A stretch of 41,080 nt of DNA from positions 1 through 41,080 of the forward strand of contig JAKSYS010000576.1 in the NCBI GenBank assembly GCA_022925895.1. Direction: 5' to 3'. The notes under the pieces were generated by a model. The model was given only the letters and a program-made list of their open reading frames with translations, did no database searches and was not told the DNA's origin. Shown here piece by piece: positions 4,507-41,080 of the stretch. The stretch is from Fragilaria crotonensis. Lineage: Eukaryota > Bacillariophyta > Fragilariophyceae > Fragilariales > Fragilariaceae. Numbering within the stretch: position 1 is the first letter of the stretch; every line of letters starts with the position of its first letter. The position numbers and the translations under genes were made by a program.

Positions 4507-4927
4507 TTGTAGCCTCTAAACTAGTTGGGGGTTTACATTGTATTCGTCCACCTATAGATTTGTCGCAGGCCACTTCACTTTGTTCCTTATGTTCGCAATG
4601 ACAAAGTGCGTCACGAATTTGGACCGAACGAAGTCAAGTCTGAGCATACTAACGCACGTAATGCCGCCCACAGTCTGTTCACAGCGAATGACTCTTCCTC
4701 TTTCATCAACCCAGCTACACCACCATCGTCGTTTTATGTGAAACTGTTGTCACACTTTTCCACACTCGGATATATTCCGAGTATTCTCTTATTGCAAATT
4801 ACGAAACAGATCAAACAAGAATGTAGGGGCGAAGTTAGCTTATGTCAAGACTGTGCGGACCGCCAGGCTCAACTCTTTATCTCTGCAAGAAGGGCTGTGA
4901 TTGTTTGAACAGACATCCATCCCATCC
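4507..4927. other. Convergent intergenic region before LEO1
   Basis: A 421-bp gap between two converging genes. No gene, RNA or clear repeat is visible. Confidence 0.5.
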
Positions 4928-6337
4928 CTAATCTTCATCATCGTCGAACATATTTGACTGAGCCTTCTTAGGTTTCTTCAGAGCAACTTGTTCCTCGTCA
5001 TCAGAGTCATCACCGCCCACGTTGAACTCCTCTTCTCCTTCATCGTCACTCTCCATCGATTGGCGTGCTCTCTTCTTCGTATCACGCATGGCAGCAAGTC
5101 TTCCCCGGCTCCAGCCGACATCCTCATCGTCGTCATCATCTTCCGACGCATAATCCACGTCATCATCCACGGGACGATCTCTTCTCTTGAGATCTTTGAT
5201 ATTGACAGAATCGTAGTTCGCGTCTTGTTCTTCCATGTACCGCCGGTTCATACCTGGTGTTCGTCGCGTACTTCCCGAGGTGTAGTGTCGAGTCGTATTC
5301 TTGCGCGCCTGTGCCTTGTCCAGGTCTGTCTTTTGGCGGATGCGTTCTTCCTTGAGCTTTTCGGGATCTTCGTTCGTCACATATGCGGCAATAGTGGCAC
5401 GCTTGGTCGTCTTTTGACGAACGGCAACGGTCAGAGCCTTGTGCGCTGCAGACTGCAATGACGAGGGGCGAGCAGAAAGCTTGGAGATTGGGCCCATACA
5501 TTCCAAGACTGTGCCACCCGGCTGCTCGTCTTCGTTGTCGTCATCGTTGTCATCGTCCTTTTCCGTTGGAAAGGTTGCCTTTTGGCTCAAATAGAGGTAT
5601 CCATTCAGACCTGGGTATCCGGATTGGCCAGATTCACGCTGATCACAGAGAAAGACTTCCGACCCAACGTGCAACGTCATGCTACCATCGTCCCACTTGA
5701 CCAGACGCGCATTCGATTCACGCATCAGTTTTCCATCCCTGGAACGAACGAAATTTCCGTCTTTATCCTTTTGATACCTCCAGCGAATCATATTGTGAAC
5801 GTATCCATTGTATTCCGCTTCTTCATCTTCAGGCTTGAAGGTGTCAACATCAAACGGTTCTGGTTGAATTCCAACAACATTTGGTAATTTGGTAATGTGC
5901 AGAGTGGTGTCTGCACTGGGTCGCTTGGAATTCAGGACAGTCATTTTCTTTGGTCGTCTCAGTTTTGGAGGAGAATCCGATGCAGGTTTGGTAGGGGCAG
6001 CGGAACCAACAATGCCTTCTCCATCATCGAATTCAACATCTTCCTCATCGGGGCTATACACGACCTTTTTCTGTTCTGTTGATGCTTTTTCGTTTGTCTT
6101 TGTAGGACCTCGATCGTTTGACACGTTTTTGTCGTCGTCGTCATCGTCATCATCGTCATCGGCTTCGTCGATTTCAATGGTTCGTTTAGGAGCCTCTTTC
6201 ACTTTTGCTTCCCCGTCATCGTCATCATCGTCATCGTCGTCAAAGTTGCCTTGAGTTACACGCTTCTTAGGTTGCTGCTCTTCATCTTGCAATTCTTCGT
6301 CTGAGGAGTCGTCGTCAAAGAGCACATTGGACGACAT
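4928..6337 (-). CDS. LEO1: LEO1, subunit of the PAF1 transcription elongation complex
   Basis: Leo1 is a subunit of the nuclear PAF1 complex, which travels with RNA polymerase II and supports elongation and histone modification. I start at the ATG at 6337 (MSSNVLFDDDSSDEELQ), because the upstream 101 codons in frame begin without an ATG and look non-coding; this gives 469 aa. Residues 1-115 are acidic with two Asp runs. The Leo1 core spans about 143-345: LHITKLPNVVGIQPEPFD at 146, then the EYNGYVHNMIRWRY segment at 175, WDDGSMTLHVGSEVFLCDQR at 215 and the charged helix TNEDPEKLKEERIRQKTDLD at 321. The C-terminus is acidic and ends MFDDDED. This layout is typical of the family and no frameshift is present. 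It is divergent from EAPP. A broken copy lies about 3 kb away. Confidence 0.93.
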   Translation of the reverse strand: MSSNVLFDDDSSDEELQDEEQQPKKRVTQGNFDDDDDDDDDGEAKVKEAPKRTIEIDEADDDDDDDDDDKNVSNDRGPTKTNEKASTEQKKVVYSPDEEDVEFDDGEGIVGSAAPTKPASDSPPKLRRPKKMTVLNSKRPSADTTLHITKLPNVVGIQPEPFDVDTFKPEDEEAEYNGYVHNMIRWRYQKDKDGNFVRSRDGKLMRESNARLVKWDDGSMTLHVGSEVFLCDQRESGQSGYPGLNGYLYLSQKATFPTEKDDDNDDDNEDEQPGGTVLECMGPISKLSARPSSLQSAAHKALTVAVRQKTTKRATIAAYVTNEDPEKLKEERIRQKTDLDKAQARKNTTRHYTSGSTRRTPGMNRRYMEEQDANYDSVNIKDLKRRDRPVDDDVDYASEDDDDDEDVGWSRGRLAAMRDTKKRARQSMESDDEGEEEFNVGGDDSDDEEQVALKKPKKAQSNMFDDDED

Positions 6338-6670
6338 GGTCAGCAACACCTTTATGGAGCCAAGCGTGAAGGGACCATCGGGTGTTGTCCGTACCAGGTG
6401 TACACGTAAACCACGTAGTGAGATAGTATTATCCGAGCACCCTATGGTAGTACTGTTCTCCTGTATCCAGTATCCTGTATTTTTGGTACTACAGTACAAT
6501 TGGGACTTGGGATCACGCAACTCTCTCATAGCGTGATCTGGCGTATGATTCTGTATACTGTAGTACTGTAGAGTCCGAGTAGCTAGGAGTACTGGTAATC
6601 GCTCGTGCAAAAATTGTCCCCTTCCTGTCTGATTCGACACACTTCCCTCAACGTTTGATTAACCTTGACA
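6338..6670. promoter_or_regulatory. Shared divergent promoter region of LEO1 and EAPP
   Basis: The two start codons are 333 bp apart on opposite strands, so both promoters must lie here or overlap. The region holds three TACTGTA/TACAGTA heptamers (6491, 6556, 6564). No TATA box is obvious. Shared control is inferred from geometry only. Confidence 0.55.
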
Positions 6671-6779
6671 ATGGCTGAACAATTGCGTCCCCAGCAGCCG
6701 GAGCAAGGCCCGCATGTAGCACCGAATGATCCAGCCATCGTGTCAGCCGGAGAATCTGACAATCCACATCATAATGCAC

Positions 6780-6830
<51 letters not shown>

Positions 6831-7312
6831 CTCTGAAATACAGCATGGATGATCCGTTGTACGGTGCCAACCTCGATGACGAAGATGAAGCTTGGGTATA
6901 CCAGAATTTACGATCGGGCGTCGCCGAGCCTGTTACTGTTGTGCGCCGAACGAGTAATGGACGTGGAAAGAATGACCAACTGGAACAAGCAAAACTGTTG
7001 CGGCCCCGTGATTCGGATGCTGTCCTGAGTTGTCCGTGTTGTTTCACCATTGTTTGCATGGATTGTCAACGACACGAAACGTACACGAATCAATACCGAG
7101 CCATGTTTGTGATGAACATTTGTCTCCAATCGAAACTAATTTATGACAATCACAGCAAGCAGTTAGTCGAAGCAACCATGGATTTGGATGAAAATGACAC
7201 AACTACCGAGGTTTATCATTCCGTAAACTGCCTGGAGTGTAAAACGCAGGTGGCAGCCTTGGATATGAAAGAGGAAGTTTATCACTTTTTTGGATGTTTG
7301 GCATCGTCGTGA
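6671..7312 (+). CDS. EAPP: EAPP-like (E2F-associated phosphoprotein) zinc-motif protein
   Basis: This matches the E2F-associated phosphoprotein family, small nuclear proteins tied to E2F-dependent transcription and cell-cycle control in animals; the role in this lineage is unknown. The ATG at 6671 is the first Met (the frame extends two codons upstream from a TTG), giving 213 aa. The N-terminus is Gln/Pro-rich, followed by a 15-residue Asp run and the family segment MDDPLYGANLDDEDEAWVY. The diagnostic core is near residues 115-150: LSCPCCFTIVCMDCQRHETY then QYRAMFVMN. A second Cys pair (CLECKTQVA) and the ending VYHFFGCLAS also fit EAPP. The Cys pairs CPCC, CMDC and CLEC probably bind zinc. 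The ORF is intact. Confidence 0.9.
6782..6826 (+). repeat. (GAC)15 microsatellite coding poly-Asp in EAPP
   Basis: Fifteen perfect GAC triplets in frame encode Asp15. The purity at DNA level, with no synonymous GAT, suggests recent slippage expansion and likely length polymorphism. Confidence 0.95.
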
Positions 7313-8078
7313 TCCATGCATCTATACACACTATGCACACGGAATGTACATTAATACTCGCAGTGCCGTCTGGTAACATAGGAAACTTACAAGTCATGAT
7401 TTCTTCTGGACTAGATTAGATGCGGGTTCCTTTGGCAACATCGACAGGAACTGGTTCTTTCAAATCAACCCCAGTGGTCCTCATACGCGGCAGACGTTTC
7501 CCACATCCACCACAGGAGTTCAAGTTGTTTGCCTCAATCCTAACGAAAGCTGGTAAATGGTTGGATACCCCTGTATCGAGCAATGTGATTCGACAGTTGC
7601 TATTGTCGTGAAGGGGAAAAATAGGTCTGGATGCTTCGGACCCTTAGAAGTGAATCACCTCCGTTGCTGCTTTGCCTTCTCCATTCTAGTTCTTTTAATT
7701 CAAGCACTGTACAGTCGTCGTAAGGTACAACTGTACACTGGTGAAAAGGTTTCGCTCGTCTGGACCTCCTCCGGTTTGAAGGAGTGAGATCAAGAACTCC
7801 AGTATCAAGAATGTAACAGGTACATGTACTGTAGTACTACTACCAGAGATACAATCCAGTTCCACCGTCCAAGGTACAAGTACTAGGTACTGGAAAAAAT
7901 GTTACGGGGGCATGTGACGATGACGAAGAACTTCGAACGAAAAACAAATGCATTGAACAGGTCGGGAGCATCATCAATCCAAGCCCTTTCATATGAACTA
8001 TAAACGTTCTCACTGCTATGCTTTCTCGACTAGAGTTTGTGGACAGTGTTGAGTAAACACTCGTTCCGTGTCAATCTA
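7313..8078. other. Intergenic region upstream of the HtrL/YibB-type gene
   Basis: About 760 bp with no supportable gene. A TACTGTA heptamer lies at 7827 within a tract rich in GTACT repeats (about 7820-7890). Confidence 0.5.
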
Positions 8079-9629: not shown

Positions 9630-11972
9630 TCATTCACACACATCGACGTTGTGTTTCTGTAACTCAAGAACCACCTCGGAATGGCCATGTCGGGTGGCCA
9701 CAGTAAGACACGTGTCGCGGCAAGATTTTTGCATTCACGTCCACGTCCTTGCACGACAATAGTTCATGAACAATTTTCGAATGACCATTAGAGCTTGCCG
9801 CAATAAGCGCAGTCGCATCCTCATCATTCGTGGCATTCACATTCACCTTGCGCTGCGTCACAGACTGGATCGAACAAATACGGACGCCCGAGGTGTTGAG
9901 ATCTGAATGACCTCCATCCTTTCTCGTCTTGGCATCATTAGAATCGCTTCCCATTAGGTCCCAGCCGAAACTATCAGCATCACCAACGTTTCCGCTAGCG
10001 AGACTCGGCTGCGTGTTGCAGTCATGATTGTCGATTTTCCCATTCACTGACGCGAAATTCAATAACTCAACAACGATTTCGAAATGACCACATGCACTGG
10101 CACTAATGAGAGCTGTAGTACCACTCCTGTTAACAGCATTCACATCAATGTCTACATGATTCAGCAATTCTGCAACGACTTCAAGATGACCCTTGAAGCT
10201 CGCCAAAATAAGCGCTGTCGAGCCATCTCGCCTTTTGGCATTCACGTCTACCATCAGATGAATCGCGGGGCAAGCCACGCCCTCCAAACAAATATTGTCC
10301 CTCATCCTTGGAAGATCTACGTCTTCAGCGACTGTCTTCAGGTTCATCTGATCACTTTCAGGGACACTCAAACCAACGTCTGAGTAGCAGTTCCGGTCTA
10401 GAAAATCAACGCCTGTAACACAATCATCATCAGCCACGACACTCGCATTCACCGTCGTTGACCCACTGATGTTCCGATTCAACAACTTGCATACAACATC
10501 CCGGTGACCCTCATCACTCGCAACATGAAGTGCTGTTGCTCCATCCTCATTCCTAGCATTAATATCCAGCTTTTGATGCTTCAATAACGCACCAATCACC
10601 CCCAAATTGTACCTTTCACTGGACAAGATCAAAGCCGTTTTGCCATTGTCGTCGTTGGCATTCACATCGACCAACTGGTGCTTCATCAACTCGAGAACCA
10701 CATTCAAGTGACCACCGTAAATCGATAAGATCAGGGGCGTGCGTCCATTTTCGTCCTTGGCATTCACATCAACCCTTTCATGCCTCAACAACTCCCACAC
10801 ACATTCCGAATGACCATTCATACTTGCCCAGATGAGAGCCGTGCAACCATTTTCATCTTTCACATTCAAATTCACCCGCGCATGCTTCAATATCTCTCGA
10901 ACAACCCTCGAATCGCCCTTCTTGCTCGCCACGATTAGCGCTGTCGCGCCATCCTCGTTGTTGGCATTCACATCAAGCGTCTGATGCTTGGAAAGCTCGC
11001 GAACTACATTCGAATGACCATTTTCACTCGCCAAGATGATCGCCGTGTTCCCATCGGCATCTTTCGCATTCAACTCCACCACATCGCGCTTCAACAACTC
11101 GCGAACGACCTCGACATGACCCTTTCCACTTGCCAAGATGAGGGCCGTGCGACCTGTGGTACTTTTTGCATTCACAACCACCTTCGTGTTCTTCAATAGC
11201 TTGCGAACCACCTGCGGATGACCCATTTCACTCGCCAGCATGAGTGCCGTTGTGCCAGTGTGATTCGCGGCCTTCACATTCACCTTCAGTTCCTTTAACA
11301 ATTCGCCAACAACTTGCAGATGTCCATTGCCACTCGCCAAGATGAGTGGTGTGCTACCATCAGAACATGTCACATTCACATTCAAATTCATAACGTTTAA
11401 GAGTTCGCGAACGATTGCCAAGTGTCCATTCGCACACGCCAAGATAAGGGAAGCACTTCTGAGACCAATTTGGCGGTGTTTCAATAGCTCGCGAACCACT
11501 TCCAAGTGGCCCATTCGACTAGCTAATTGGACTGCCGCGAAGCCGCCATGATTTGTGCAATTCACTTCCACCTTCTCGTGTTTTCTCAATTCATTAACAA
11601 CTTCGGTATGGCCTTTTCCACTTGCCCAGATTAGAGCGGTGTTGCCAATCCTACACTTGGCATTCACATTCACTGTCACCTGTTTCAATAATTTGCGAAC
11701 AACTTCCACATGGCCCTTTTCACTCGCCAACATGAGGGCCGTTTTGTCTAAGTTGCTTTTTTCATTCACATCCACCTTGGTATATTTCAATATCGCGCGA
11801 ACAACTTCTGCATAACCATATGCACTTGCCAAGCCAAGAGCCGTATCACCGAGGCAGCATTGCTGGAATCCAAATTCGCCTTGCTAAGCAATAGGCAATG
11901 CACCTTGTCAATATTTCCAAGTTTCGCCTCTGACACCAGCGTCTGGACCAACAACTCAGCTGCTGAAGGCAT
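9630..11972 (-). pseudogene. Ankyrin-repeat protein gene, about 18 repeats, two frameshifts
   Basis: A 722-codon frame (11832 to 9664) is filled with 33-34-residue ankyrin repeats of the form DGxTALILASxNGHxxVVxELLKHxxVDVNAK. I count 17 repeats in or overlapping this frame, with non-repeat inserts after repeats 14 and 16. The frame has no ATG at its start: its first repeat (GDTALGLASAYGYAEVV) continues upstream in frame only to a stop at 11884. In a frame offset by one base, an ATG at 11972 starts MPSAAELLVQTLVSEAKLG, a good N-terminal cap that runs into repeat 1 with a shift near 11852. At the 3' end the 722-codon frame stops just after NAKILP, while the next frame continues with a further repeat (TVATRHGHSEVVLELQKH) and stops at 9630. 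The gene therefore has two single-base shifts, at about 11852 and 9733. Function would be protein binding; no effector domain is seen. Sequencing error is a real alternative to pseudogenisation. Confidence 0.75.
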
Positions 11973-20403: not shown

Positions 20404-21902
20404 GGAAGGCGAGGCTTTGTGCGAACGGTAATGAAACGGATCCCAAAGGATCGACTTTCTCAACTGTGGTGTCACACCGTCCGGCTCTTCTTCTTGATGG
20501 CAGCACTTCACGATACGGACATATTATTGGCCGACATTCAGAACGCCTATCTGAATGCTCCGGTGAGGGAGACGAAGTTATACACTATAGCGGGTAAGGA
20601 GTTTGGTCCCAAGAATGAAGGACGTCCGGTAATGCTCGTGCGTGCACTTTATGGGTTGCGGAGCAGCGGCAAGTCCTTTCGTGACTTTCTCGCAAATAAT
20701 CTTCGAGAGATGGGGTACGTAAGTACTAAGGTACCAGACCTGGACCTGTGGATGATGCCAGACACTAAAACTGATGGTACGGAATACTACTGATACGTTA
20801 TATTCTATGTTGATGATGTAGCGGTTACAATGGAGGAACCCAAGCGGTTTATGGACGAGCTAGGGCTACGGTTCACTTTGAAGGAAGGAAGTGTGCAGGA
20901 ACCAATACTGTATTTGGGAGCCGACGTTATGAAGTGGTATATCGCTGAGTCAGACGAACCGGGAAAGGTTCGATGGGCATTGGCGTCTACGAAATATACA
21001 AGTAGTGCAATCGCTGACCTTGAGACTGAAGTAGATTCAATAGGGAAGCGACTTGTTCCCACAAAGGTTGTTACTCCACTTGCCAGTGCTTACCGGCCGG
21101 AGCTGGACCAAACGACGCAGTTGAATGCCGGCGAGAGGCAGAACTACTATCAGGGGCTGATAGGAATACTCCGTTGGATATGCGAACTGGGACGGCTTGA
21201 TATACTTATGCCGGTCTCAATGATGTCTCGATATTTGGTGGCTGCTAGAAAAGGCCATTTGGATCAACTGTTTCATATTTTTGCATATTTGAAGCGATAT
21301 CATTCGTCGATGATGGTCTTTGACGATACGGAACCTGCCTTTGACGAGAGGAGGTTTAAGGTTTGTGATTGGAGTGAATACTATCCTGGTGCTAAGGAAG
21401 CTTTGCCTCCGGATATGCCAACACCGCGAGGACGTTCCGTCGTGATGTCTTGCTTCGTCGACGCTGATCATGCGGGTGCAGAGTTACGAGACGATCGCAC
21501 ACGGGTGTGATCATTTTCGTGAATCAAGCTCCAATATTGTGGTATTCAAAAAGACAGAATACGGTAGAGTCCTCAACCTTCGGATCGGAGTTTGTTGCAA
21601 TGCGGATTGCAATCGAAATGATTGAGGGACCACGTTATAAGCTGAGGATGATGGGTGTAGGGATCGATGGACCGTGCAATGTGTTTTGCGATAACAATGC
21701 AGTGGTGCTGAATTCTGCTAACCCGGAATCCATGTTGAAGAAGAAGCATGCGGCTATCAATTATCATCGGGCGCGGGAAGCAATCGCAGCGGGAGTGATT
21801 AGAGTTGCAAAGGATAACACGGCGACGAATATTGCCGATTTGTTAATGAAATGTTTACCTGGTCCGACCTTACGCGAGCATGCGGGTCGGATATCATGGT
21901 GA
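20404..21902 (+). pseudogene. Copia-type retrotransposon remnant: reverse transcriptase and RNase H
   Basis: This is the 3' half of a Ty1/copia pol resembling the diatom CoDi group. Near 20404-20470 an ARLCANGNETDP segment lies in one frame, followed after a shift by LADIQNAYLNAP and ALYGLRSSGKSFRDFL. A TGA at 20791 lies directly before the polymerase active-site motif YVDDV. The next stretch (20797-21510) covers the RT thumb and connection. A further shift near 21500 leads into the RNase H part, with WYSKRQNTVESSTFGSEF and a VFCDNNAVV block, ending at 21902. There is no gag, protease or integrase next to it and I see no LTR pair. It is dead: one stop and at least two frameshifts. Confidence 0.88.
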
Positions 21903-26629: not shown

Positions 26630-26638
26630 TTTACATTA
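26630..26638. repeat. Left 9-bp target site duplication of the MULE
   Basis: TTTACATTA, identical to 34171-34179. A 9-bp duplication is typical of Mutator-like insertion. Confidence 0.92.
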
Positions 26639-27116
26639 GGGGAAATTACAATATCACGCATTTTTTTGCCACTTTTCAATATAGTACAATGACTTACTAT
26701 CCACAAATTCGTATTTTACTATATACTACATTTACAATTGTATTTTACAATATCACGCATTTTGAAAAGAGACATTTACAATATCACGCATTGTTTTGCC
26801 CCTTTACTATATCGCGCTTGTCGCCTGCCATGCCCGACCTCCACGGACGTCATGGTACACCATCTCGTAACATTCATCAAAGATGGTTCACACTCATCGC
26901 TCCACCATGTCGTACATACGCAACGAACATCATCATCACTCACTTCTCATCTGTCGTTCGTTTACTAAGCATCATACTTTGAGTGTGGTCATAATTCTTC
27001 TCTCTGCTCTTTTGTTTCAGAACTACAACTCAATCTTCATCTATATGGTCAACGAAATGGCACCAAATCTGAGATCAACAGTAGTCCCATACACAATCTG
27101 CGTCACGGTACTGTAC
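26639..27116 (+). repeat. Left terminal inverted repeat of the MULE, 478 bp
   Basis: Matches the reverse complement of 33691-34170 end to end. It holds three copies of the 16-mer TTACAATATCACGCAT at 26646, 26745 and 26776, plus a variant ACTATATCGCGC near 26809. These are candidate transposase-binding sites. It ends inward at a GGTACTGTAC palindrome. Short frames in it are not genes. Confidence 0.95.
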
Positions 27117-27406
27117 CACAAACAACCTACTGACGTAGCGAAGCCCATGAAGGGCAACATGCCATTATCTTACCAGTGTGTTCACTGCTTTTTGCTGTTA
27201 ACTCACTTTGCTACCATTATACTTCGCACTTGATGTGCAAGTTAGTTATCATTAACATCAACATCAATTGTCTTCATCGTTGTCATCAGTATCTTTTGAA
27301 CAGCATTCTTTATCGTCGTCAGGTCTGTACAAATCCAGACCCAACAAACGATTACGCATTGCCTGCCTCCTCCGTGCCTGCACTCTAGGACAGTCTTCGT
27401 CACTTG

Positions 27407-28936
27407 TCATTTCCAAGTCAGACTGGAATTGACGTGCCATCCCTTCCTCCTCCGCATCCCTCTTGCAGTAGCGATTACAACGTCGTCGTCATCGTTGTAA
27501 CGACAACCATGCTGAATACAACGACGAATGTATGTTTCTGCCTCGTCATTGCTGTCATCACGGTCATGTGATCCAGAGGTGATCTTCTTCATTTCGTCGT
27601 CCTTCTCCTTCACCTCGTGGAATAGTCTCTTCGGGCGCCCTGTATTTGATTGTGCCACATTCGTGACAACATCTGCTGCCGCACTACTTCCTGAAGCACG
27701 ACGTCGACCTGCCGCCACAACTTTTTCCTTGGCTGCCGTGAAGGTGCCATATAAGTGATTGTTGCCATTCCAACAACCCGAGCGTACTGGTGCTGTACCT
27801 TGCCCATCCGGTCGAGACACCGACGTGCAATGTCTCACAGCACGTCCGTCCCAGCTTATGGCTGTCCCATGATAAAGCTTGACGGCAATGCCATTGTACT
27901 CCGTTCCGCATGGCCTCCTTCCGTGCAAATTGGGGAAGATCAAGTACCAGTTTGATGCACAACCGGGCATTTCCTCTGTCCACACACTAAAGCCCTGCGA
28001 CGCGTCGTTTACGTCGAAATGCGACGCATTTCCTAGGTCAACGCTCATATCAATCGTGTAGCCCACCCGGATCCCATTGCAGTCATTTTCACCCATCGGA
28101 GCAATGGGTGGAAGAGATGAATCGGCTTCCATGTGTTGAACAACAGACAGCACATCGGGAAAACAGCACATACCGATAGTTGCGAACGCCGCAATAAACC
28201 TTTTCAGTACTGTTTGCGGCACCTTATAGTTAGCGGCGTATCCAACAGTACCCGATCCGTCAAGGAGCACTCGTGTCCCAATGGCATGCATTGTCCCAAC
28301 ATCTCCTTTGTTCTGTCTCGCCGTGCCAACAGGTACATTCCGACGCAGAAGTGAGTTGTGTTCCACAATTGCGTCTAGGCAACCGACAACGTCATATTGT
28401 TGCTTCAGATGACAATACCGCGACTTGAGTGATGCGTCAAGAACGCTTCGGACCATGATGACAGACTTCCTCCCAATTGTGCTTGGCACTGGTGGTGCAA
28501 TGTCGACTATGATGTCAACGAATGGGCGTTCCCCAGGATCAACAATCCAGCAAGTATCGGGGATGTTAAGATGCAAGCACCCAGGAGCGTAATGACGACC
28601 ACCCACCCTTGTGGAATTAGAGTTGACAAGGCGGCGATTGTATTCCTGAGCTCGGTCAGGAACTGGCCACGCACCCACATCGTGGCCAGAGATAAGATCT
28701 GGTGGCATCCTTGGGCCTTCGTGATCCGCGCATTGTGTTGACGTGAACACTTCACGCGGAAAATTTATTGTGGCGGGATGGTACGCAACTCTCCACGCAG
28801 ACACAAAAGTAGACTGTGGCGACCCCTTTCTCGTAATGCTGGCAAACCTTTTAACGTAACCATCCCCACCAAATTGCAAGTCCGACTGCGGCGACTGCTC
28901 CATGCCAGTCTTTAGACGAAACCAACTCATGTCCAT
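27407..28936 (-). CDS. MULE cargo: putative 2-oxoglutarate/Fe(II) oxygenase-like protein
   Basis: A clean 509-codon frame from an ATG at 28936. The C-terminal half has the order expected of a double-stranded beta-helix oxygenase: GYTIDMSVDLGNASHFDVND at 292 (H306-x-D308), SVWTEEMPGCASNWYLIFPN at 317, and KLYHGTAISWDGRAVRHCTS at 353, where a GxxISWDG turn precedes H369 as in the second metal-binding His; Arg375 or Arg385 could bind 2-oxoglutarate. A conserved-looking LYGTFTAAKE segment follows at about 396. The last 90 residues are charged and low-complexity with a basic end (GMRRRKGW). The frame stays open upstream to about 29050, and two shifted frames carry what look like its N-terminal parts. 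DNA-, RNA- or protein-modifying activity are all possible; a TET/JBP-type role is speculation. The fold call rests on motif spacing only. Confidence 0.6.
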   Translation of the reverse strand: MDMSWFRLKTGMEQSPQSDLQFGGDGYVKRFASITRKGSPQSTFVSAWRVAYHPATINFPREVFTSTQCADHEGPRMPPDLISGHDVGAWPVPDRAQEYNRRLVNSNSTRVGGRHYAPGCLHLNIPDTCWIVDPGERPFVDIIVDIAPPVPSTIGRKSVIMVRSVLDASLKSRYCHLKQQYDVVGCLDAIVEHNSLLRRNVPVGTARQNKGDVGTMHAIGTRVLLDGSGTVGYAANYKVPQTVLKRFIAAFATIGMCCFPDVLSVVQHMEADSSLPPIAPMGENDCNGIRVGYTIDMSVDLGNASHFDVNDASQGFSVWTEEMPGCASNWYLIFPNLHGRRPCGTEYNGIAVKLYHGTAISWDGRAVRHCTSVSRPDGQGTAPVRSGCWNGNNHLYGTFTAAKEKVVAAGRRRASGSSAAADVVTNVAQSNTGRPKRLFHEVKEKDDEMKKITSGSHDRDDSNDEAETYIRRCIQHGCRYNDDDDVVIATARGMRRRKGWHVNSSLTWK

Positions 28937-29659
28937 GGCAATCCTGGAACCTTCTACACCTTCTGACTTTCTTCGCCAGTCCCTTACAGCGTAAAATACA
29001 CCCGCCCTGGGAGGAACGCAAGGAGAGTCCTGTACTTGAAGTCGTTGACATCATCCAGGTCTTTTCTTCAGACGCAGGTGCCATAATGACGTCGTCTTCA
29101 CCCAAGTTACCATAACTTGAGTCACTTATACCCAATGCCGCGGCAGCCGTCGGGTAATCCTCCGATTACAGATGACATCCATTAGGATGAATTCCGAAAG
29201 GAATTCGGAGGATGATCCGTGCTTCATGAACATGTCATCCAGAGACCGCAATTGCGTGATGGCAGTACTACGATCCGAATCGTTGTTGATACCGAATGAA
29301 CAAGCAAGCGCATACGCTATCCATCGCAAGGGTGTCCCACATATCTCGACCTCGCCCTTCATCGTCCCTGTTTTCGTTGCATCGCGAAACGCAGTCGCAA
29401 ATTCCCGACCTTCACTGAAATTACCGCCGTTCAAGGGGAAGCACTTCAGTAGAAGCGCCAACACCTTTGGACTGGAAGGAAAGTAATTCCTCTGCTTGCG
29501 TTTTTTCGGCATCTTGTTACTTAACCGTTTTCTTGAAGGATCCACCACTACCACACGTGGATTTTCCTTTCCAAAGTTGAGCATAGTTGACCGACAAATG
29601 GACGTCCGACATCGCGCCTTCAACGTTTCGTTGTCTTCGTTTGGTATCAAGTCCGACAT
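28937..29659 (-). pseudogene. Probable N-terminal portion of the oxygenase-like cargo gene, frameshifted
   Basis: The ATG at 29659 opens 177 codons (to 29126) beginning MSDLIPNEDNETLKARCR, with a basic KKRKQRNYFPSS stretch and a helical FSEGREFATAFRDATKTG region. A shift near 29150 continues as AALGISDSSYGNLGEDD, and another near 29050 joins the frame of the 509-codon ORF through SPCVPPRAGVFYAVRDW. The composition is continuous, so the intact gene probably encoded about 750 aa. The N-terminal domain is unrecognised. Two independent genes remain possible. Confidence 0.5.
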
Positions 29660-30486
29660 GGCAAATGGTTTGCCAATACTACACTCACAGCTAAATGGCA
29701 GGAGAGTACAGTAAACTTGTTGACAGCAAAACGAACTCCGTCGGCTAGATGGCAGATGGAATTTGTTTCAGTGAAACAACTCTAACCCTACGTCAAGGAC
29801 ACCTCGTTCTACTAAGGTGACCAAATACTTAGAGCTCCAAGCTAAATGGCAGGGAGAGAAAGTACTCTGTCGACGCAACAAGCATTCCCGGCTAGATGGC
29901 AGGGAAATGATGATGCGCTCCTGGTAGTGAGGTGGCCTCAGGTTAAGAGGTGAATGCGAAGATTGTTCGGAATGATAGACGAAGAAGAAGTAAACTTGAC
30001 TTGAGAAGTAATGCCGGAGTGAAACGTGTTGGACATAGAACTCCGCGCGCAATTCTTTGGTTAGTACATGTTTTACGTTGAAATTCGCGTGAATTTGAAT
30101 CATGGACTACTAATTAGCCTACCAGCGCGCGAAAGTACTACTAATTAGCCAACAAACGCGCCAAAGACAGCAAAATTTTGATATTTATCTCTAGTCATGT
30201 AGGTTAGTGTATAGTGACTTGGCAATATAGTACACACCAACCCCTACAGAAATCTTGTTTTTTATGCAAAACGCACGCACGTTCTTAAATGAATTGAAAT
30301 GAATAACACTTACTAGGCTTAGGTATTTTACTTAGACGTAACACTTAAGCGTTGCACTTAGACGTAATGCTACGGAAGCGTACAAGTACCACTTTTACAT
30401 CGAATTCTCAAGCCACCATCGGTTGTCATCTTCCTCTTTTGAGGTGTCTTTGGAGTTGTGTTGTGATCACCACAAACATACCATGA
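29660..30486. promoter_or_regulatory. Central divergent spacer of the MULE with repeated motifs
   Basis: The minus-strand cargo gene and the plus-strand genes diverge from here. The 12-mer GCTARATGGCAG occurs four times in the same orientation, at 29690, 29744, 29841 and 29891. Further in, ACTACTAATTAGCC occurs at 30106 and 30137 followed in both cases by a CGCGC-containing tail, and ACTTAGACGTAA at 30330 and 30356. These are candidate binding sites for a host or element regulator. No TATA box is certain. Confidence 0.6.
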
Positions 30487-31304
30487 AGGAGGCACGTTTC
30501 CGGAGATCCTCGCTTTTCTGGATGGATATCACCCAGCAGTGATGACACTTCTGCGCTGTCAACGAATGCTTGGCTGAGCACTTTGTTATTGGACTGTATA
30601 TTGCAGCGATCTGTCCCTCCCCAGGAGGTAATTTCCACGAATGTATCTCACATAGGAAGCCTTGGCACCTATGAGTACTTCAATTCATGTAATGACTTGA
30701 TCAATGATAATCCAGAACTCGTGGAAGACGAGACGACGAGAGGACGTAAACTTGCTCGCAGTCGGAACGTCGCTCGTATTCGGCAACAAATGAAAGCTTG
30801 TTTTGGATCGCCGCGTACTCTCAACAGGCTGCTTATCCCGATTGTGTTGGGAAATCATTTTTTTGTGCTATGCCTGGACTGTTCGATCTCAACGCCGGAG
30901 TTCGTAAATGACATGACGTTTTATGATTCCCTGGTACGCCGCACACGTCAGGTTCACCCCGATGTCCTTTGCATCGTAAAGGTTGTGAATTTATTCATTC
31001 ACAATTTCATTCTACACGAGAAAAAACATGCACACCTAAGGGAAAGTGACGCGGCGCTGATTGGCAGGGTGCATTATTGCGATTGTCCCATCCAGAAGAA
31101 TGGGTTTGACTGCGGCTTGTTTGCAGTGGGTGTTGTATTACACCTCATCGAGGGCATTGATGTCACGAGAGAAACGTTTCGGCAACAAGACGTCACAAAC
31201 TGCGAAGTAGGCTGGTGACAGTATTTGGGGATGGTGCTGACTTGGGAACAACAAGTCAGGTTGTGCGTGATTGCTTTCTAAGTTGCGCGGAAGTAGCATC
31301 TTAG
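30487..31304 (+). pseudogene. MULE cargo: Ulp1-like C48 cysteine peptidase
   Basis: Ulp1/SENP peptidases remove SUMO or related modifiers. The frame is open from 30487 but has no ATG before the family's first feature, a WLSTLLLDCILQR stretch resembling the substrate-groove WLxD motif near 30570. Counting from the codon at 30583, the triad candidates are H92 (IVLGNHFFVLCLD), D115 (MTFYDSL) and C177 with the oxyanion Gln171 in PIQKNGFDCGLFAVGVV; spacing and the QxNGxDCG signature fit clan CE. A shift near 31197 leads from VTNCEVGW* into a second frame, KLRSRLVTVFGDGADLG, which stops at 31304. The catalytic core itself is intact. A missing start might mean an unseen upstream exon. It sits directly before the transposase on the same strand. 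Confidence 0.75.
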
Positions 31305-31676
31305 ACAGTTTTGGGCTGGAGGTCATTCATAAAGAACCAAAGAAGGAACGAAGGCTCAGTTCCGACAGTGATGTGAGTGCTGCTGTCCTGGTGTTGACAA
31401 CGTTGCAGGCTGAGGAGGCAGATCGTCCTGCCAGGGTGAGTAACGTTTATCGGCAAAACAGCAGACAGAGCGCAGGCGAGGATAGAGAGAGAATGAGAAT
31501 CACGACGATGACGACGACGACGACGACAGGGCTGGGGAGATGATGATGATGATGACTACGTCACCTGCGACAGCAGTGACGAGTACAGTTAATCCGATGG
31601 CAAGGAGAAGCACGATCACAGCGTCGGCACTTCCACCCTGACAGGAGAGGAAGTCGACAGAAAGCAGGGAAATTCA

Positions 31677-33607
31677 GTGGCTACAAAGGATTATGTATTG
31701 TATGACATCCTTGATGACGCGAACGTTGACTGCTTCTCAACCTTGGAAGAGGTGGTACCGTTTATTGAAAAGTATGAGGTCAGATCGGGTAATCGTTTGA
31801 GAGTGCAACGTTCCATTTGCGACCGTTTCAAACAATTTCAATGTATGGAGCACGTCGACTGTCCGTTTCGTGTGTTGATATCTAGGCGGCGATCCGACGG
31901 TATGTTCTGCGTCCGAAAGATTACGGGTATGCACAGTGAGGTGTGCCGACCTAAACAGGCAGCTGATGGGAGAAAGTGGAAGAAGAGGCGAAATGCAGTG
32001 CTTGATGATGTTATCGATCAGATAGTTCGCACGAAGAAGGGAGCTCCAACACCGGCGGACGTTGTGAAGACAGCTGCGACGAAGTCGGGGGTTGTCGTTT
32101 CGTACATGACAGCGTACAGGGCGCTACGCTTTCAAACCAGTAGCATGAGAAATGCTTCCGTGAAAAACTTCGAAATGGTCATCCCATTTTTGGAGGGCTT
32201 GAAGAAAACGAATCCTGGTTCTGTGATTGGGTATACTAGGGATGAGGAGAAGAGACTTGTCGATCTTCATGTATTTCCTGGTATCATGAATGGGTTGCTG
32301 AAGTTTGTTCGACCAGTAGTGTCGTTGGATGCTACACATTTGAGGAGCGAACACAAGGGAACTCTGTACATAGCATCAGTTCTCAGTGGGTGCAATGACA
32401 TCTTCCCCATGGGTTTATGATCTCCGCCGGAAACGAGGATGGAGCAACGTGGAAAAAGATGCTTGAATTGTTGAAAAAGCGTGTCCAATCATTGATGATC
32501 AGGGCTATGGCGACACTGACACGGATGGCGTTGTTAGGCCGCCGTTTCTTTTCATTTCAGACAGAGACAAAGGCCTGAAGGAGGCATTGAAATCGGTGTT
32601 CCCGAATAAGTACGAAATGAGCTGTGCTAGACACATCGAAGCGAATGTAACGCAGAAGTATGGAAAGCAGTGTTCGAAGTTTGTGTTCAATAGCAAATCA
32701 TTCTCAACACGAAATGCCAGCCTGTTGCTAGATGAGATTCGAAAGGTCAAGCCAGAGGCCGCCACATATTTGGAAGGCATAACGGCGTCAGGTGTTCTGT
32801 GGCAGAGTACTCAGTGGTACTCAGATTCACCGTCACCGTCACCTGCTCAGTTGCCTCCAAGGTATGGGATTGTAACTTCGAACACTTCCGAGTCGGCGAA
32901 CAGTATGTTATCGGAAGCAAGGAATCTTGGATGGCTGGAGGCTGTGAACAAAATTCTTGACATAATGACGACGAGAGTGTGTGCTTGCCGAAAGAAGTAT
33001 GCTGAACGAGATGGATCGGAGGTGGTGCCTAGAGTTGCCCAGATTCTAAAACGTAGGTGGGATGCCGCTGCGTCTATGACGGTCGATGAGTTGGAGGTGG
33101 GGTGTGGTGACTTCAAGGTGGTGGAACCAATATCGATAGTTGATGAAAATGGCGATGACAATGTGCAACGGATGGCACGATCCTATGGAGATCCAGACCG
33201 TGTCCTTGTTGTCAAACCATACTTGGAGTGGTGCAGCTGCGGGGTATGGCAAGACTTCCTGTACCCGTGTCGACATGCATGTGCAGTCTTCAGGAAATGG
33301 CAGGAAAAGGAATTCAGTTATGTTCTGAGAAGTTTGGTCCATCCATTCTACACATTTGAGTTCGTGCACAACACTTTCAAGAAGAACGTTTTCCCTGTAT
33401 GCTTGGAGACGACTGTATATGATGGTGAAACAAAGGAACCAAACGTGCCAAAACGGCAATCTGGACGACCGAAAACAAAACGATTCGCAAACGCAGTAAG
33501 TTCATTGAAAGCGAGATTCTCCTGTGAAATGTTCCATTTGTGGAAGAAGAGGGCACAACCGAAGAACTTGTCCTAGTGCACTAGTTGGTAACAATGACAA
33601 TAAGTAG
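31677..33607 (+). pseudogene. MULE transposase (MURA-like) with SWIM and CCHC zinc motifs, frameshifted
   Basis: The first frame (31677-32420) has a MuDR-type zinc-binding region with CMEHVDCPFRV and TGMHSEVC, then the first catalytic Asp in PVVSLDATHL (D218). A one-base shift near 32405 gives MISAGNEDGATWKKMLELL; another near 32475 gives the second Asp in FLFISDRDKGLKEAL; this joins the frame 32587-33576, with CARHIEANV, the catalytic Glu in SNTSESANSMLSEAR, and the SWIM finger CSCGVWQDF...CRHAC. A last shift near 33528 moves to a frame with a zinc knuckle, CSICGRRGHNRRTC, ending at 33607. The DDE triad is thus spread over three frames. Upstream in the first frame there is a TAA at about 31593 preceded by an Asp-rich run, so the true start is uncertain. 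The family call is secure. Confidence 0.9.
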
Positions 33608-33690
33608 AAGAAACGAGAACGGGTACATCATGAAGCATGCCACGATGAGATCATTGTTTATGTAAGATTGGAAATTTGCTTCAATAGGTC

Positions 33691-34170
33691 GTACAGTACC
33701 GTGACGCAGATTGTGTATGGGACTACTGTTGATCTCAGATTTGGTGCCATTTTGTTGACCATATAGATGAAGATTGAGTTGTTGTTCTGAAACAAAAGAG
33801 CAGAGAAGAATTATGACCACACTCAAAGTATGACGCTTAGTAAACGAACGACAGATGAGAAGTGAGTGATGATGATGTTCGTTGCGTATGTACGACATGG
33901 TGGAGCGATGAGTGTGAACCATCTTTGATGAATGTTACGAGATGGTGTACCATGACGTCCGTGGAGGTCGGGCATGGCAGGCGACAAAAGCGCGATATAG
34001 TAAAAAGGGGCAAAACAATGCGTGATATTGTAAATGCCTCTTTTCAAAATGCGTGATATTGTAAAATACAATTGTAAATGTAGTATATAGTAAAATACGA
34101 ATTTGTGGATAGTAAGTCATTGTACTATATTGAAAAGTGGCAAAAAAATGCGTGATATTGTAATTTCCCC
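33691..34170 (-). repeat. Right terminal inverted repeat of the MULE, 480 bp
   Basis: Reverse complement of the left TIR with four substitutions and three 2-bp indels. It holds the 16-mer in inverted orientation at 34018, 34049 and 34148. Ends with CCCC before the target duplication. Confidence 0.95.
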
Positions 34171-34179
34171 TTTACATTA
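34171..34179. repeat. Right 9-bp target site duplication of the MULE
   Basis: TTTACATTA, identical to 26630-26638. Confidence 0.92.
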
Positions 34180-37171: not shown

Positions 37172-37987
37172 TTTTATTCTGCTGGAACCGATAACTTTTT
37201 TCGATTCACTTGGATTCGTCGATGGAACACAAAGTACACTCCGAGCACTTTCTAGTAGGACGAGGATGATTAGACTACTACTCGGGTAGAGCGTCGCGAC
37301 TGCAATTAATGCTCTCAGACATGCCATGAATCTAGGTGACACCACCAGTGTAAACATGCACGCGTGCACACACCAATAATTCGTGGTACGCACCATTCCA
37401 CTCTCGGTGAGACCATATGCAGCATTTACTGCACTTTACACCATGAAGACTGAGAGCCAGTATGGCGTACTTGTATCTACCGCCACAACGTCAGTCCGAT
37501 GAACGACGCGATGTGAAAAGGTGTGATTCATTCCAATGAAGCTATCACTCATCTGCTGGAAGTTTGGCCGACAGACCGCTGATCCCGGACGGATCCGATT
37601 TAGAATGCAATGAAATGACGTCAAGCGTACAAGTGTACCTGAACATATCTTTTGGGGGTCGCGGGAAAGGTCGTGTATGCAACACATGGTACTAGTACTG
37701 CAAGGTGTGCCGGGAAAGTGTTCCAAATATCATACACCTAAACGATATGCATACTGCATACTATGATACTACACTACTCGGAGTTCCACAAAAATCTCAA
37801 AACCTCAAAACACGATACGCGGAGTATTGTAGATATTGTCAGGATAGAGTCGTCTGTCCTGCCATCCGACATGCGCGGGGACCTCACAGTTCCAGCGTAG
37901 GTAGACTAAACTGAACCACCTAGTCACTTCTACTTGTGCATGACGATTAATAGTCTTTGTTGCTACTTTAACCTCTTTTAGTTGACC
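37172..37987. other. Intergenic region upstream of copia gag
   Basis: About 816 bp. It should contain the 5' LTR and primer-binding site if the copia element is complete, but with no second LTR in the window I cannot delimit one. Confidence 0.4.
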
Positions 37988-39202
37988 ATGTCCGAGCCTT
38001 CTACTCCCTCCCAAACCGCTGGTACTGCTAGCATCACCCCAGGTGATGCTGTGAACGTGACTCCCGTTCGTTTAGTCCACCCCACGTCGCAAATCCTTGA
38101 TTTGTTCGTGGACATCCTCGATGAGGAGGAGGCGGACCGTACGAAGTTAAAGGAAGGGATCACGCTTCTTTTCAGTCAACATTGGCGTGTCCGTAAGTGG
38201 AGCGATATGAAGTTATTCACGTCTGAGGACGTCAAGACAGCTCTGGTTTCCGGCAACGGAATGCCAGAGGAGCTTTTAGCCCCTGTCGTTGTCAAAAAGG
38301 TGGGCTGTATCGTTGATTACGCCCGCATTGGCATTTTGACGCCGGATCTGACTTTGGACGTTATCATGAGTCAGCTTGATGCTTCTAAACAGAAGGCATC
38401 TCCTACTGGTTCTATCGTTGGCTCCCCTTTGCGTAAAGGTTCCGAACTCTACGACAAGAAGAACATGCCAAAGTTGAGCAAGTTCTCTGGCTTGGATGAG
38501 GATTACTTCGCGTGGAAGGACGCCACGGTGAACTCAATGGGCATTGGTGGTTTTGGTATCTTCTTGAAAGATGCGGCCGAAGTCCAAAAGTACCCGAGTG
38601 TCGGAGAGAGCGTATTTTACCTCCTCCGCACTGCGGTTCATGGGGGCCAGGCTCAATCAATTGCCCAGGCGATGGTTGACGACGACAAGCTAGATCCGGT
38701 GGCGTTGTGGGCTGATCTTGCAGCCTACTACGATACTACGATCAACCGCGCTAACGTGGTCTTGTTCGACGTCAGACGTCTTCTTAGTATTCGCTTGGAT
38801 CCTGACGTTTCCGGGTCGAGTTTTGTTTCGGACTTCCGCGACTGCCTTCAGCGTCTCAGGAAGAATAAAGCAAAACTCGCTGAAGACAAAGATACCCTCC
38901 GAGCTCTGTTATTGGTTGCGATTCAAGACGAGGCGTTCGATTCAGTTCGTGACTCCATCGTTCATCGTCCCGACAGCAGCGTGGAGGCAATCTTGACCGA
39001 AATACGTGAGCGCGAAACATCGCTCAACATCAAGGATCAAGCGTCGGGTGTTTCTGGTGACGGTGCATCTGGTACTAGACACTCGCGTCGGACCGTTTCC
39101 ACATCTGCCGGAACTCAACAGAGATCGGCAGGAGGTGAACCGGGACCGATGAACAGGAAGTGGATCATTCGAAGTTTCCAGATACTTGGAAAATCGGGAT
39201 AG
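37988..39202 (+). CDS. Copia-type (CoDi-like) retrotransposon gag
   Basis: The ATG at 37988 (MSEPSTPSQTAG) opens 404 codons with the gag layout of diatom copia elements: a helical region with LYDKKNMPKLSKFSGLDEDY and FAWKDATVNSMGIGGFGIFL at about 155-190, an RTAVHGGQAQSIAQAM segment, and LRKNKAKLAEDKDTLRALLL. It ends prematurely in a shifted frame after MNRKWIIRSFQ; coherent sequence goes on as FPDTWKIGIGASFFKLLLEWR in the next frame. Gag packages the element RNA into particles. The gene continues into pol downstream. Confidence 0.8.
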   Translation: MSEPSTPSQTAGTASITPGDAVNVTPVRLVHPTSQILDLFVDILDEEEADRTKLKEGITLLFSQHWRVRKWSDMKLFTSEDVKTALVSGNGMPEELLAPVVVKKVGCIVDYARIGILTPDLTLDVIMSQLDASKQKASPTGSIVGSPLRKGSELYDKKNMPKLSKFSGLDEDYFAWKDATVNSMGIGGFGIFLKDAAEVQKYPSVGESVFYLLRTAVHGGQAQSIAQAMVDDDKLDPVALWADLAAYYDTTINRANVVLFDVRRLLSIRLDPDVSGSSFVSDFRDCLQRLRKNKAKLAEDKDTLRALLLVAIQDEAFDSVRDSIVHRPDSSVEAILTEIRERETSLNIKDQASGVSGDGASGTRHSRRTVSTSAGTQQRSAGGEPGPMNRKWIIRSFQILGKSG

Positions 39203-41080
39203 GTGCTTCGTTTTTAAGCTTTTACTCGAGTGGCGCATTGAGGCCCACAGGGTAGAATCAATTTCAACTCAACGAGCAATTCAACACCATAGTTGAGCGG
39301 TTCAAGACAACCGCTACTGGCAATGGAAAGCGCGGAAAACAGAACAAGTCTCGCCGATCGAAGAAGGCTAAGGCTGGTTCGACGTCTAGTACCCCGATGG
39401 CACTGCTACTACTGTCAGAACCGGGTAACGATGACGGTTCCGACGGCTCCGGTGACGAGCTGGTGACGAGAAAGCGAATCCGTTTGCAGAAGAGCCGTCG
39501 GATTCTCTCCGAACGCAGCGCCTGACTTCTTGCAGAGGAGGAAACTTCCGTTCGCGTCCTTCGCCGTGTTACTCGTTTGAATGAATTTATTTCGGAAGTC
39601 GACTCCTCTCAACAAATTCTTGTATCGGACACCGGGAATGATCAAACCTTGGTGACGTCCATCTGGAAGGTTGTGAGGAGGACCGGACGCGAGGTAATGA
39701 TGACCGGGGCTTTTGCTGGCCGAAACGTTGGCGAAGTTTTTCCAGTTGTCTCTGCCGTAGCGAAATTGATTGGTGAGGATGGTAAAGCCTACGCGGCATA
39801 TGCTCACGAGGCTTTACTAGATTCAAACCCCCAACAGACAGAATCCCTACTTTCTGTACATCAGTCTTTGCGGGACCAGAGGAATGGTATCGATGATCGC
39901 GCGCGTTGCGAACGCGGCGTCGATGGAAAACCTGGTCTCCAAATGGCTCGATTTGGAAAACACAAGCTTCCTTTTTACTTTGATGGCACCAAGTGTTTTT
40001 TTGAAGTTCATCGCATCACTGATTCAGAGGAGCTATCGTTACCAAGGGTATCTTTGACGGATGGATCCGTTGCCTACGAACCGATGGCGCGACTCCATTC
40101 ACGTCGGCGACCCGCGACTCCGATTCATACCGATGCATGTTGGAAGCGGTTTTTGGGTTTCACCCCTGATCACGTTGTTGCTAAGACATTGTCTGCGACG
40201 ACACAATTGGTTCCGACGGTCGAAGCGGAGACGAGAGAGATGATGCGCGACCACTTTCAAACGCGGTTGCCAGAGCTCAAAGTACGACGTGTCAATGATG
40301 TTTGTTATGTTGACACGTTCTTCTCTTCGCTCCCGTTGGTTCGAGGTTTTAAATGCTGGAATCTTTATTGTTTCCGGCGAACAGGTTTGGACGTCGCATT
40401 CTTAATGCGCCGCCAATCTCAGAGTCCGACGACGTTACCGAAGCTGGTGGCCGACTGTGGTGCACCGACGGTGATCAAGTCAGATAACGCACGAATTTAA
40501 GGGTAAACGTTGGGTCGATTATCTTACTTCGATGTCGATTCGTTCTGAGTTCACGGAGGCCCACCATCCAACGAGAACCTCGCGGAGCTCGCGGCAGTGC
40601 TTTGAAAGCCGCGACTGTCCATCTTATGAAAATCACCGGCTGCCCCTTAATTGTGGTGCTTCGCGTTGGAATATGTATGTCTTTTACGGACGGTACTTGC
40701 TCGACGAAGTCTGAACTGGTCGACACCACACGAAGCACACTGGGGCGACAGACCGGATATAAGTGTCTTTCGTTTCGTTTTTTGGCAGCCGATTTGGTAT
40801 TACAATCCACGTCAACCTTTTCCACAACCTAAGATGTTAAAAGGCCGTTTTCTGGGTATTGCTCAGAATATCGGAGACGCGTTTTGTTTCTTAATCTTAA
40901 CTCAACCCGATGACGAAACGGAGACTTCTCCACAGGTGTTAGCTCGATCGGTGATACGCAGACGATACCCGCGTGATGATACGTCGGAGATTGTCCCCGC
41001 ATCGCCCTCGACGACGCTATCGTTTTATTGCAACGATGAACGTACACTTCTCGCCGACCCGAGTTCGATCGATGACGGCG
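39203..41080 (+). pseudogene. Copia-type pol: protease and integrase, frameshifted, cut by window end
   Basis: After the gag, a basic spacer (KRGKQNKSRRSKKAK, about 39330) leads, through shifts near 39290 and 39535, into a 307-codon frame (39577-40500). This has the aspartic protease motif ILVSDTGNDQTLV, then the integrase region, with VCYVDTFFSSLP carrying the first catalytic Asp and VIKSDNARI the second. A TAA at 40498 and further shifts interrupt it; coherent sequence continues as KGKRWVDYLTSMS, TVHLMKITGCPL and KMLKGRFLGIAQN up to the window end. RT and RNase H would lie beyond 41080. The element is dead as written. It is a separate insertion from the RT/RNase H remnant at 20404-21902. 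Confidence 0.82.

Follow-up and report, generated by a model that had tools for sequence, protein, structure and literature searches.

A two-gene Mutator-like element of Fragilaria crotonensis and its accessory gene family shared among DNA transposons of the same genome

A bounded Mutator-like element and its genomic copies

The window analysed here is a stretch of 41,080 nucleotides from the alga Fragilaria crotonensis (Bacillariophyta; GenBank assembly GCA_022925895.1, contig JAKSYS010000576.1, positions 1 to 41,080 of the forward strand). At 26639-34170 it holds a Mutator-like element (MULE), a DNA transposon of the terminal inverted repeat (TIR) type with two divergently transcribed genes (Table 1). 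One gene encodes a predicted transposase joined to a Ulp1-type peptidase domain, and the other, on the opposite strand, an accessory protein with an HxD...H pattern. The two TIRs, 480 bp each, are approximately 98% identical, and a perfect target-site duplication, TTTACATTA (9/9 bp), flanks the element on both sides, in agreement with a preliminary description made from the letters alone that had called it a bounded MULE.

Table 1 Features of the element (positions in the window)
Feature	Position	Strand	Basis or remark
Left 9-bp target-site duplication, TTTACATTA	26630-26638	.	Read from the sequence
Left TIR, 480 bp	26639-27118	+	Inverted-repeat and genome comparison
Accessory ('oxygenase-like') gene, HxD...H in its 3' part	27264-29659	-	Split by small indels in the window; start and stop by eye
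Ulp1-MULE transposase gene	30483-33607	+	One open reading frame in relatives; window copy broken by small indels; start and stop by eye
Ulp1 (Peptidase_C48) part; His, Asp, Gln and Cys kept	30487-31218	+	Pfam PF02902, E 2.7e-8
Transposase DNA-binding region and first catalytic Asp	31593-32420	+	PF03108, E 0.0022, below cut-off
Catalytic region (second Asp, Glu) and SWIM finger	32467-33576	+	SWIM 1.8e-5, MULE 2.2e-5
Right TIR, 480 bp	33691-34170	-	Inverted-repeat and genome comparison
Right 9-bp target-site duplication, TTTACATTA	34171-34179	.	Read from the sequence

As the preliminary description had suggested, the left TIR was used to find other copies in the same genome (62.1 Mb, 881 contigs), which gave 44 matches (best 40 of 91 candidates scored). 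They comprise subfamily A, 96-100% identical and including the window copy, and subfamily B, mostly 84-90% identical, together with internally deleted and very short forms. We examined 16 copies, namely the window copy and 15 fetched loci, of which 9 are whole elements with both gene blocks: the window copy, L001, L002 and L003 in subfamily A, and L004-L008 in subfamily B, where L008 carries an additional insert. The 9-bp duplication is perfect around the window copy, L003, L004, L007 and a 4.2-kb derivative with a deletion, L011, and also around the more distant relatives L019 and L020. By eye the duplication is 8/9 in L002 and L008, and in L001 and L006 it fits only when one terminal base is counted into it; L009 is truncated at its right end, and the right end of L005 is the contig end. 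Target duplications at several sites demonstrate past mobility of the element family. The preliminary description had allowed for cargo genes that were captured once by chance and are lacking from other copies; instead, full-length copies of both subfamilies retain both genes, under purifying selection (see below), and incomplete copies are deletion forms, L011 for example, and short pairs of TIRs. Miniature inverted-repeat transposable element-like TIR pairs of approximately 0.8 kb and foldback-like pieces of approximately 0.2 kb occur at C15:103956-104768, C94:35252-36069, C335:3165-3377 and C239:47822-48048.

A Ulp1-type peptidase fused to the transposase

Searches with Pfam profiles assigned the plus-strand gene to the MULE transposases. 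The broken open reading frame (ORF) of the window copy scores 25.2 bits with the MULE profile, below the cut-off of 27.6, and 24.6 bits with SWIM, above its cut-off, and the L002 transposase (P0003) passes both (37.1 bits against 27.6 and 25.5 against 19.6). The catalytic D, D and E are conserved in every aligned sequence that reaches them, and with these residues and both profiles the earlier identification of a SWIM-finger DDE transposase holds. The Peptidase_C48 profile scores 34.4 bits in the window copy against a cut-off of 20.7, and the His, Asp, Gln and Cys that we take to be the catalytic residues of Ulp1/C48 peptidases are all conserved in 9/9 aligned sequences. A PDB search with query protein P0002 returned no match at E 0.01.

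In related families, Ulp1 and transposase occupy a single uninterrupted ORF (1042 amino acids (aa) in L017, 967 in L018, 968 in L020 and 997 in L021), and each of these ORFs has both Peptidase_C48 and MULE domains. The Ulp1 and transposase frames appear separate in subfamily A copies; in subfamily B, ORFs of 566 aa (L006) and 539 aa (L007) span from Ulp1 into the transposase DNA-binding region. Judged by these reading frames, one gene encodes a DDE/SWIM MULE transposase with a predicted cysteine peptidase of Ulp1 type at its N terminus. Because the two share one ORF in relatives, the element has two genes, arranged head to head, and not the three that had first been proposed; the Ulp1-like peptidase of that proposal is present as a C48 domain, but it is not a separate cargo gene.

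Small indels and purifying selection

Both genes of the window copy are broken by small insertions and deletions (indels). Of 11 pairs of near-identical copies, 9 differ by more indels than substitutions, 1 by as many of each and 1 by one indel fewer; the counts are 29 against 14 for the window copy and L002, 24 against 3 for L004 and L006, 34 each for L002 and L003, and 37 against 38 for L001 and L003. Since indels outnumber substitutions between such copies, many of the small indels are probably assembly errors.

Selection was analysed codon by codon, with gapped codons set aside, between L002 of subfamily A and the subfamily B copies. Against L004-L007, omega was 0.23-0.24 for the accessory gene, 0.26-0.27 for Ulp1, 0.43-0.48 for the linker/DNA-binding region and 0.12-0.13 for the transposase; against L008 the values were 0.35, 0.28, 0.39 and 0.16, in the same order. 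Shifted frames of the same genes compared with B copies gave omega of 0.8-4.7, and Fisher tests of L002 against L004 returned 8e-16 (accessory), 8e-8 (Ulp1), 0.005 (linker/DNA-binding) and 1e-27 (transposase). With indels set aside, the accessory frame contains no in-frame stop in 8/8 compared copies. The Ulp1 block, read in the L002 frame, which runs past the frame break, has 1 stop each in L004-L007 and 2 in L008; the linker/DNA-binding block has 1 stop each in L003-L007, and the transposase block 2 in L008. On these codon comparisons, both genes were under purifying selection while subfamilies A and B diverged, and we rejected the view of a long-dead element on that ground. Synonymous divergence between A and B is 0.27 for the transposase, 0.15 for the accessory gene and approximately 0.145 for Ulp1 (0.24 with L008), and the intergenic p-distance is 0.20; because synonymous divergence varies along the element, it suggests recombination between the subfamilies.

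An accessory protein with an invariant HxD...H pattern

In the relatives L002 and C131 the accessory gene reads through without a break for 808 aa, and this protein matches the window at 27437-29680. In the protein alignment, H557 and D559 are present in 14/14 rows and H620 in 13/13 rows that reach the site. H620 lies within a WDGRxxRHxTS-like block, and the C-terminal core that holds these residues has other invariant positions as well (Trp, Asn and Gly). An HxD followed, after approximately 60 residues, by a strand-like G..W..G...RH block resembles the core of non-haem Fe(II) dioxygenases, and from the invariant HxD...H we consider it slightly more likely than not that the accessory protein is an enzyme of non-haem Fe(II) dioxygenase type. 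Sequence searches of viral contigs, prokaryote genomes and, by tblastn, phages found no relatives outside its own genome. Pfam matches to RCDG1, SPT6_acidic, LydB and Iwr1, scattered and each in 1/14 members, were discarded as unrelated. Hits in the PDB, namely GP1 chains of viral glycoprotein at E 0.01-1.3 and weaker ones besides, were put down to chance, the proteins differing by profile.

The accessory gene adjoins transposases of four lineages

Searching the genome with the 808-aa accessory protein gave 64 matches (best 56 of 531 candidates scored) at 43 loci, 38 of which lie no more than 2.2 kb from a transposase match: 21 beside Ulp1-MULE transposases, 7 beside Plavaka-type 1 (L022), 9 beside Plavaka-type 2 (L025) and 1 beside a second MULE (L023). 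A second search with an L025-type accessory protein (best 62 of 549 candidates) added 28 loci, 18 of them adjoining a transposase. The total is thus at least 71 accessory loci, a lower bound biased to relatives of the two queries, and 56/71 adjoin transposases of four lineages in two superfamilies. Many of the homologues in this genome are 40-75% identical to the query protein P0001. Transposase places were taken from the best 80 of 172, 82 of 230, 54 of 567, 46 of 201 and 72 of 412 candidates. For comparison, regions no further than 5 kb from the transposase places used make up approximately 3.8% of the genome, a rough figure that omits several secondary matches of the same transposase loci and a few Ulp1-MULE loci whose contigs have no accessory match. 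Gene orientation is divergent in 21/21 Ulp1-MULEs and convergent in 33/35 other loci (16/17 in the first search, 17/18 in the second).

Assignment to Plavaka rests on profile PF18759, which L025 (5.3e-8), L041 (1.2e-6) and L043 (1.5e-6) match above cut-off; the L022-type transposase (833 aa) has no Pfam match and is 24-28% identical to the L025 type. The L023 transposase matches the MULE profile at 6e-12. A 33-bp inverted repeat encloses the transposase and the accessory gene of L023, and C137 offers a weaker case (23 bp, E 0.007, 9.7 kb); neither has a clear duplication. Element ends were sought for L025 and none was found. L020, a TIR-bounded Ulp1-MULE of 4.35 kb, has the Ulp1-MULE gene and no accessory match. 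Because L020 lacks the accessory gene and the accessory genes of Ulp1-MULEs form one clade (see below), Ulp1 is part of the core of this lineage, and the accessory gene, which is not, was gained or lost within it.

The loci without a listed transposase nearby were in part accounted for. From the first search, the C511 locus is a fragment of a B element (L010) and C873:62763 an L023-type MULE derivative (L016), and C108:111352, C637 and C777 have no transposase match nearby among the matches listed. Of 10 such loci from the second search, 5 were inspected: 3 (C649, C773 and C21) adjoin Plavaka transposases that were not among the best-scored matches, C394 holds a gene that also accompanies Plavaka transposases, and C34 has no homologue of the tested transposases. 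At C34 (L040, C34:82000-90500), a lone, uninterrupted 950-aa ORF of the accessory family (2265-5114, minus strand) with an Asp/Tyr-rich repeat stands directly upstream, on the same strand, of an RNA-dependent RNA polymerase ORF (399-1055, minus strand; PF05183, 2e-18), and the 8.5-kb stretch contains no homologues of the tested transposases; an insertion beside a silencing gene, or domestication, is possible.

Other genes accompany these loci. By eye, second-lineage MULE transposases have a nearby Ulp1 homologue on the opposite strand at C137:43069-48049, C313:10524-15461, C346:14091-16283, C20:8990-13674 and C579:32202-37102, so that Ulp1, like the accessory gene, is found in two MULE lineages. 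The stretch 927-5769 of L016 is a derivative, approximately 90-96% identical, of the L023 MULE (19-7710), in which a Ulp1 ORF replaces the transposase. A further gene family without a Pfam match (L024 240-2174, minus strand, 645 aa; L041 303-1403; L042 1227-2054; L043 674-2125; L044 6531-8308) turns up repeatedly close to accessory genes, chiefly where the second Plavaka lineage is present, and possibly encodes a second accessory protein.

Exchange between transposon superfamilies

A maximum-likelihood tree of the accessory protein was built from 15 rows, leaving out C797 (truncated), C471 and C17 (split ORFs) and L040-L044; rows UM_B and UM_D are partial, and long-branch warnings apply to C108b, C341, C526 and C637, with C341 joined with C637. 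It resolves two fully supported clades, one uniting Ulp1-MULE with Plavaka 1 and the other Plavaka 2 with the second MULE and two unassigned rows, and the Ulp1-MULE accessory genes form one clade. Approximately unbiased (AU) tests, with constraints chosen after inspection of the tree, rejected a single group of all MULE-borne accessory genes (p 6.3e-6) and a single group of all Plavaka-borne ones (p 6e-15). Because both single origins are rejected, on this tree the accessory gene switched superfamily, between MULE and Plavaka-type elements, at least two times.

These results bear on two other accounts of the accessory gene. It might encode a non-enzymatic transposition helper acting in DNA binding, end synapsis or target choice, as second proteins of the mudrB and TnpA type do; a conserved second gene of fixed orientation beside the transposase would suit such a role, as would the lack of an enzyme family match in Pfam. 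However, a family that adjoins both MULE and Plavaka-type transposases and switched between them ill suits a transposase-specific partner, the TIR-bounded L020 does without the gene, and an invariant HxD...H would be odd for a DNA-binding protein, so that we regard a helper as rather unlikely. Passive cargo, captured once by chance from the host in the manner of Pack-MULEs, is very improbable: MULEs are known to take up gene pieces, at least in the available part of one account (PMC2528002), and the lone copy L040 adjoins a polymerase ORF, but purifying selection with an accessory frame free of stops, a position beside four transposase lineages and repeated superfamily changes all speak against it.

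Elsewhere in the window, copia-like reverse transcriptase and gag/integrase-like ORFs were seen by eye at 20794-21510 and 37982-40500, and a 739-aa ORF with ankyrin-like repeats at 9664-11883 on the minus strand.

Comparison with known systems

DNA transposons with accessory genes that pass between them are already known as a kind of system, and the closest parallel to the present family comes from fungi. In the portion of Kojima 2025 available (PMC12730594), TET/JBP genes are described in 11 fungal DNA transposon lineages, among them KDZ, Plavaka, hAT, EnSpm and Helitron and, as far as that portion goes, not MuDR; the genes passed between superfamilies and mostly have undisrupted coding regions. 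The family described here likewise occurs in several DNA transposon superfamilies, Plavaka included, but by comparison with that text it differs in its photosynthetic algal host, its MULE carriers, the absence of a Tet_JBP profile match and the absence of a conserved Arg at the expected position.

The Ulp1 domain has parallels in plants. The KI/Kaonashi (KIU) MULEs are described, in the part of PMC2528002 at hand, as non-TIR elements with Ulp1 in reverse orientation to mudrA. The preliminary description had drawn this parallel, which stands insofar as both are MULEs carrying a Ulp1-type peptidase domain; because the present element has long TIRs, and Ulp1 lies on the transposase strand as an N-terminal fusion, it is not a KI/Kaonashi element as these are there described. 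The same text reports melon, rice and grapevine MULEs, TIR-MULEs included, and CACTA elements with Ulp1 in direct or reverse orientation; these have plant hosts, and the passages available mention no second, oxygenase-like gene. For Ulp1, plant KI/KIU and VANC elements are thus the parallel (see also PMC6117577), and a Ulp1-bearing VANC (KIU) of Vandal MULEs is linked to hypomethylation in the section seen of PMC13317346. VANC acts sequence-specifically, according to excerpts of PMC5735166 and PMC10398659. The present element resembles VANDAL/VANC in having a MULE-borne accessory protein, for which an anti-silencing role is here the working hypothesis.

Two comparisons concern algae. A survey of MULEs (PMC6446971) lists, in its accessible part, a MULE-Diatoms group with one ORF, 123-124-bp TIRs, a SWIM finger and no extra domain; compared by description, it shares with the window element an algal stramenopile host and the SWIM finger, and differs, as listed, from the two genes, 480-bp TIRs and Ulp1 domain found here. 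The giant transposon Sola1-1 of Ectocarpus, as outlined in part of PMC12477816, bears an accessory ParB-DNA-methyltransferase gene on the opposite strand, with a proposed epigenetic action on the element; it too is an algal DNA transposon with an opposite-strand accessory gene, but that excerpt describes another protein in another superfamily and no HxD...H family. Among the open-licence PMC papers searched, none was seen to describe a gene of this kind in MULEs or algal Plavaka elements, and the protein family, its MULE carriers and its combination with a Ulp1-fused transposase look new.

A proposed role against silencing

Because the accessory gene is kept by selection and accompanies several transposase lineages of one genome, its product must act on something common to them, and host silencing fits better than the role of a transposase-specific partner. 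The genome has 13 C5-methyltransferase matches (best 6e-67), beside 61 light-harvesting-protein matches, which fit a photosynthetic algal host; these methyltransferase matches, together with the exchange of the accessory gene between transposable element superfamilies, make an anti-silencing role more plausible. The best overall explanation is, in our judgement, a two-gene Ulp1-MULE with a mobile accessory enzyme that counters silencing, and we see it as evenly poised between right and wrong. In the mechanism that we propose, by analogy and with slightly less assurance, the accessory protein would alter a repressive mark while the Ulp1 domain strips a SUMO or SUMO-like modifier, so that the transposons stay expressible. 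At the transposon that encodes it and at related ones, the accessory protein would remove or alter 5-methylcytosine (5mC) or the mark of a methylated protein or RNA, and the Ulp1 domain would act on the transposase, or on silencing factors at bound transposon ends.

Several results weigh against this explanation. In such dioxygenases an Arg that binds 2-oxoglutarate is expected a short distance past the distal His; at 10-18 residues after H620, where the alignment is rich in gaps, neither Arg nor Lys is conserved at 90%, and the nearest basic residue conserved to that degree is K654, at +34. Pfam searches of 14 members up to E 5 gave no oxygenase profile match, Tet_JBP (PF12851) included. Searched against the genome, PF12851 found nothing, its control matching only E. 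coli and below cut-off; PF20515 likewise gave no match, and its control matched nowhere. Comparison with the PDB, by sequence and by profile, returned no credible match to the accessory protein, and AlphaFold2 run on single window sequences of it gave predicted local distance difference test (pLDDT) values of 28.7 and 28.6, too low to read from them a fold such as the double-stranded beta-helix of those dioxygenases. Thus, what survives of the 'oxygenase-like' gene of the preliminary description is a conserved opposite-strand gene with HxD...H, and not an oxygenase profile match. Furthermore, 15/71 accessory loci have no listed transposase nearby, and the elements compared bear no consistent mark of 5mC deamination in their CpG content: observed/expected CpG is 0.96-1.00 in accessory-bearing Ulp1-MULEs and 1.00 in window positions 1-26000, and 0.85 both in the accessory-less L020 and in two accessory-bearing elements of other lineages.

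The kept HxD...H without a conserved Arg or Lys at the usual distance past the distal His, and without a Tet_JBP profile match, would also suit a protein that modifies another protein (histone, transposase) or RNA, with a cosubstrate other than 2-oxoglutarate, or a metal protein of new fold. Positive evidence for any particular substrate is absent, and we hold this alternative to be doubtful.

Returning to the anti-silencing explanation, its widest form, which we offer tentatively, is that an orphan enzyme family, unrelated in sequence to TET/JBP, may have evolved in algal DNA transposons as an anti-silencing module that can be transferred, and has been handed on between Plavaka-type elements and Mutator elements. 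In Ulp1-MULEs it would work alongside a transposase with a SUMO peptidase of its own, so that a single element would counter both SUMO-dependent heterochromatin and a methyl mark. If true, this would be a non-fungal parallel to the fungal TET/JBP transposon genes with an unrecognised protein family, and MULEs would join the carriers. A selected gene swapped among transposons points to a shared need in the same host, for which silencing evasion is a natural candidate. The system would provide a testable algal case of selfish DNA defeating silencing, and a new enzyme that modifies nucleic acids or chromatin may come from it.

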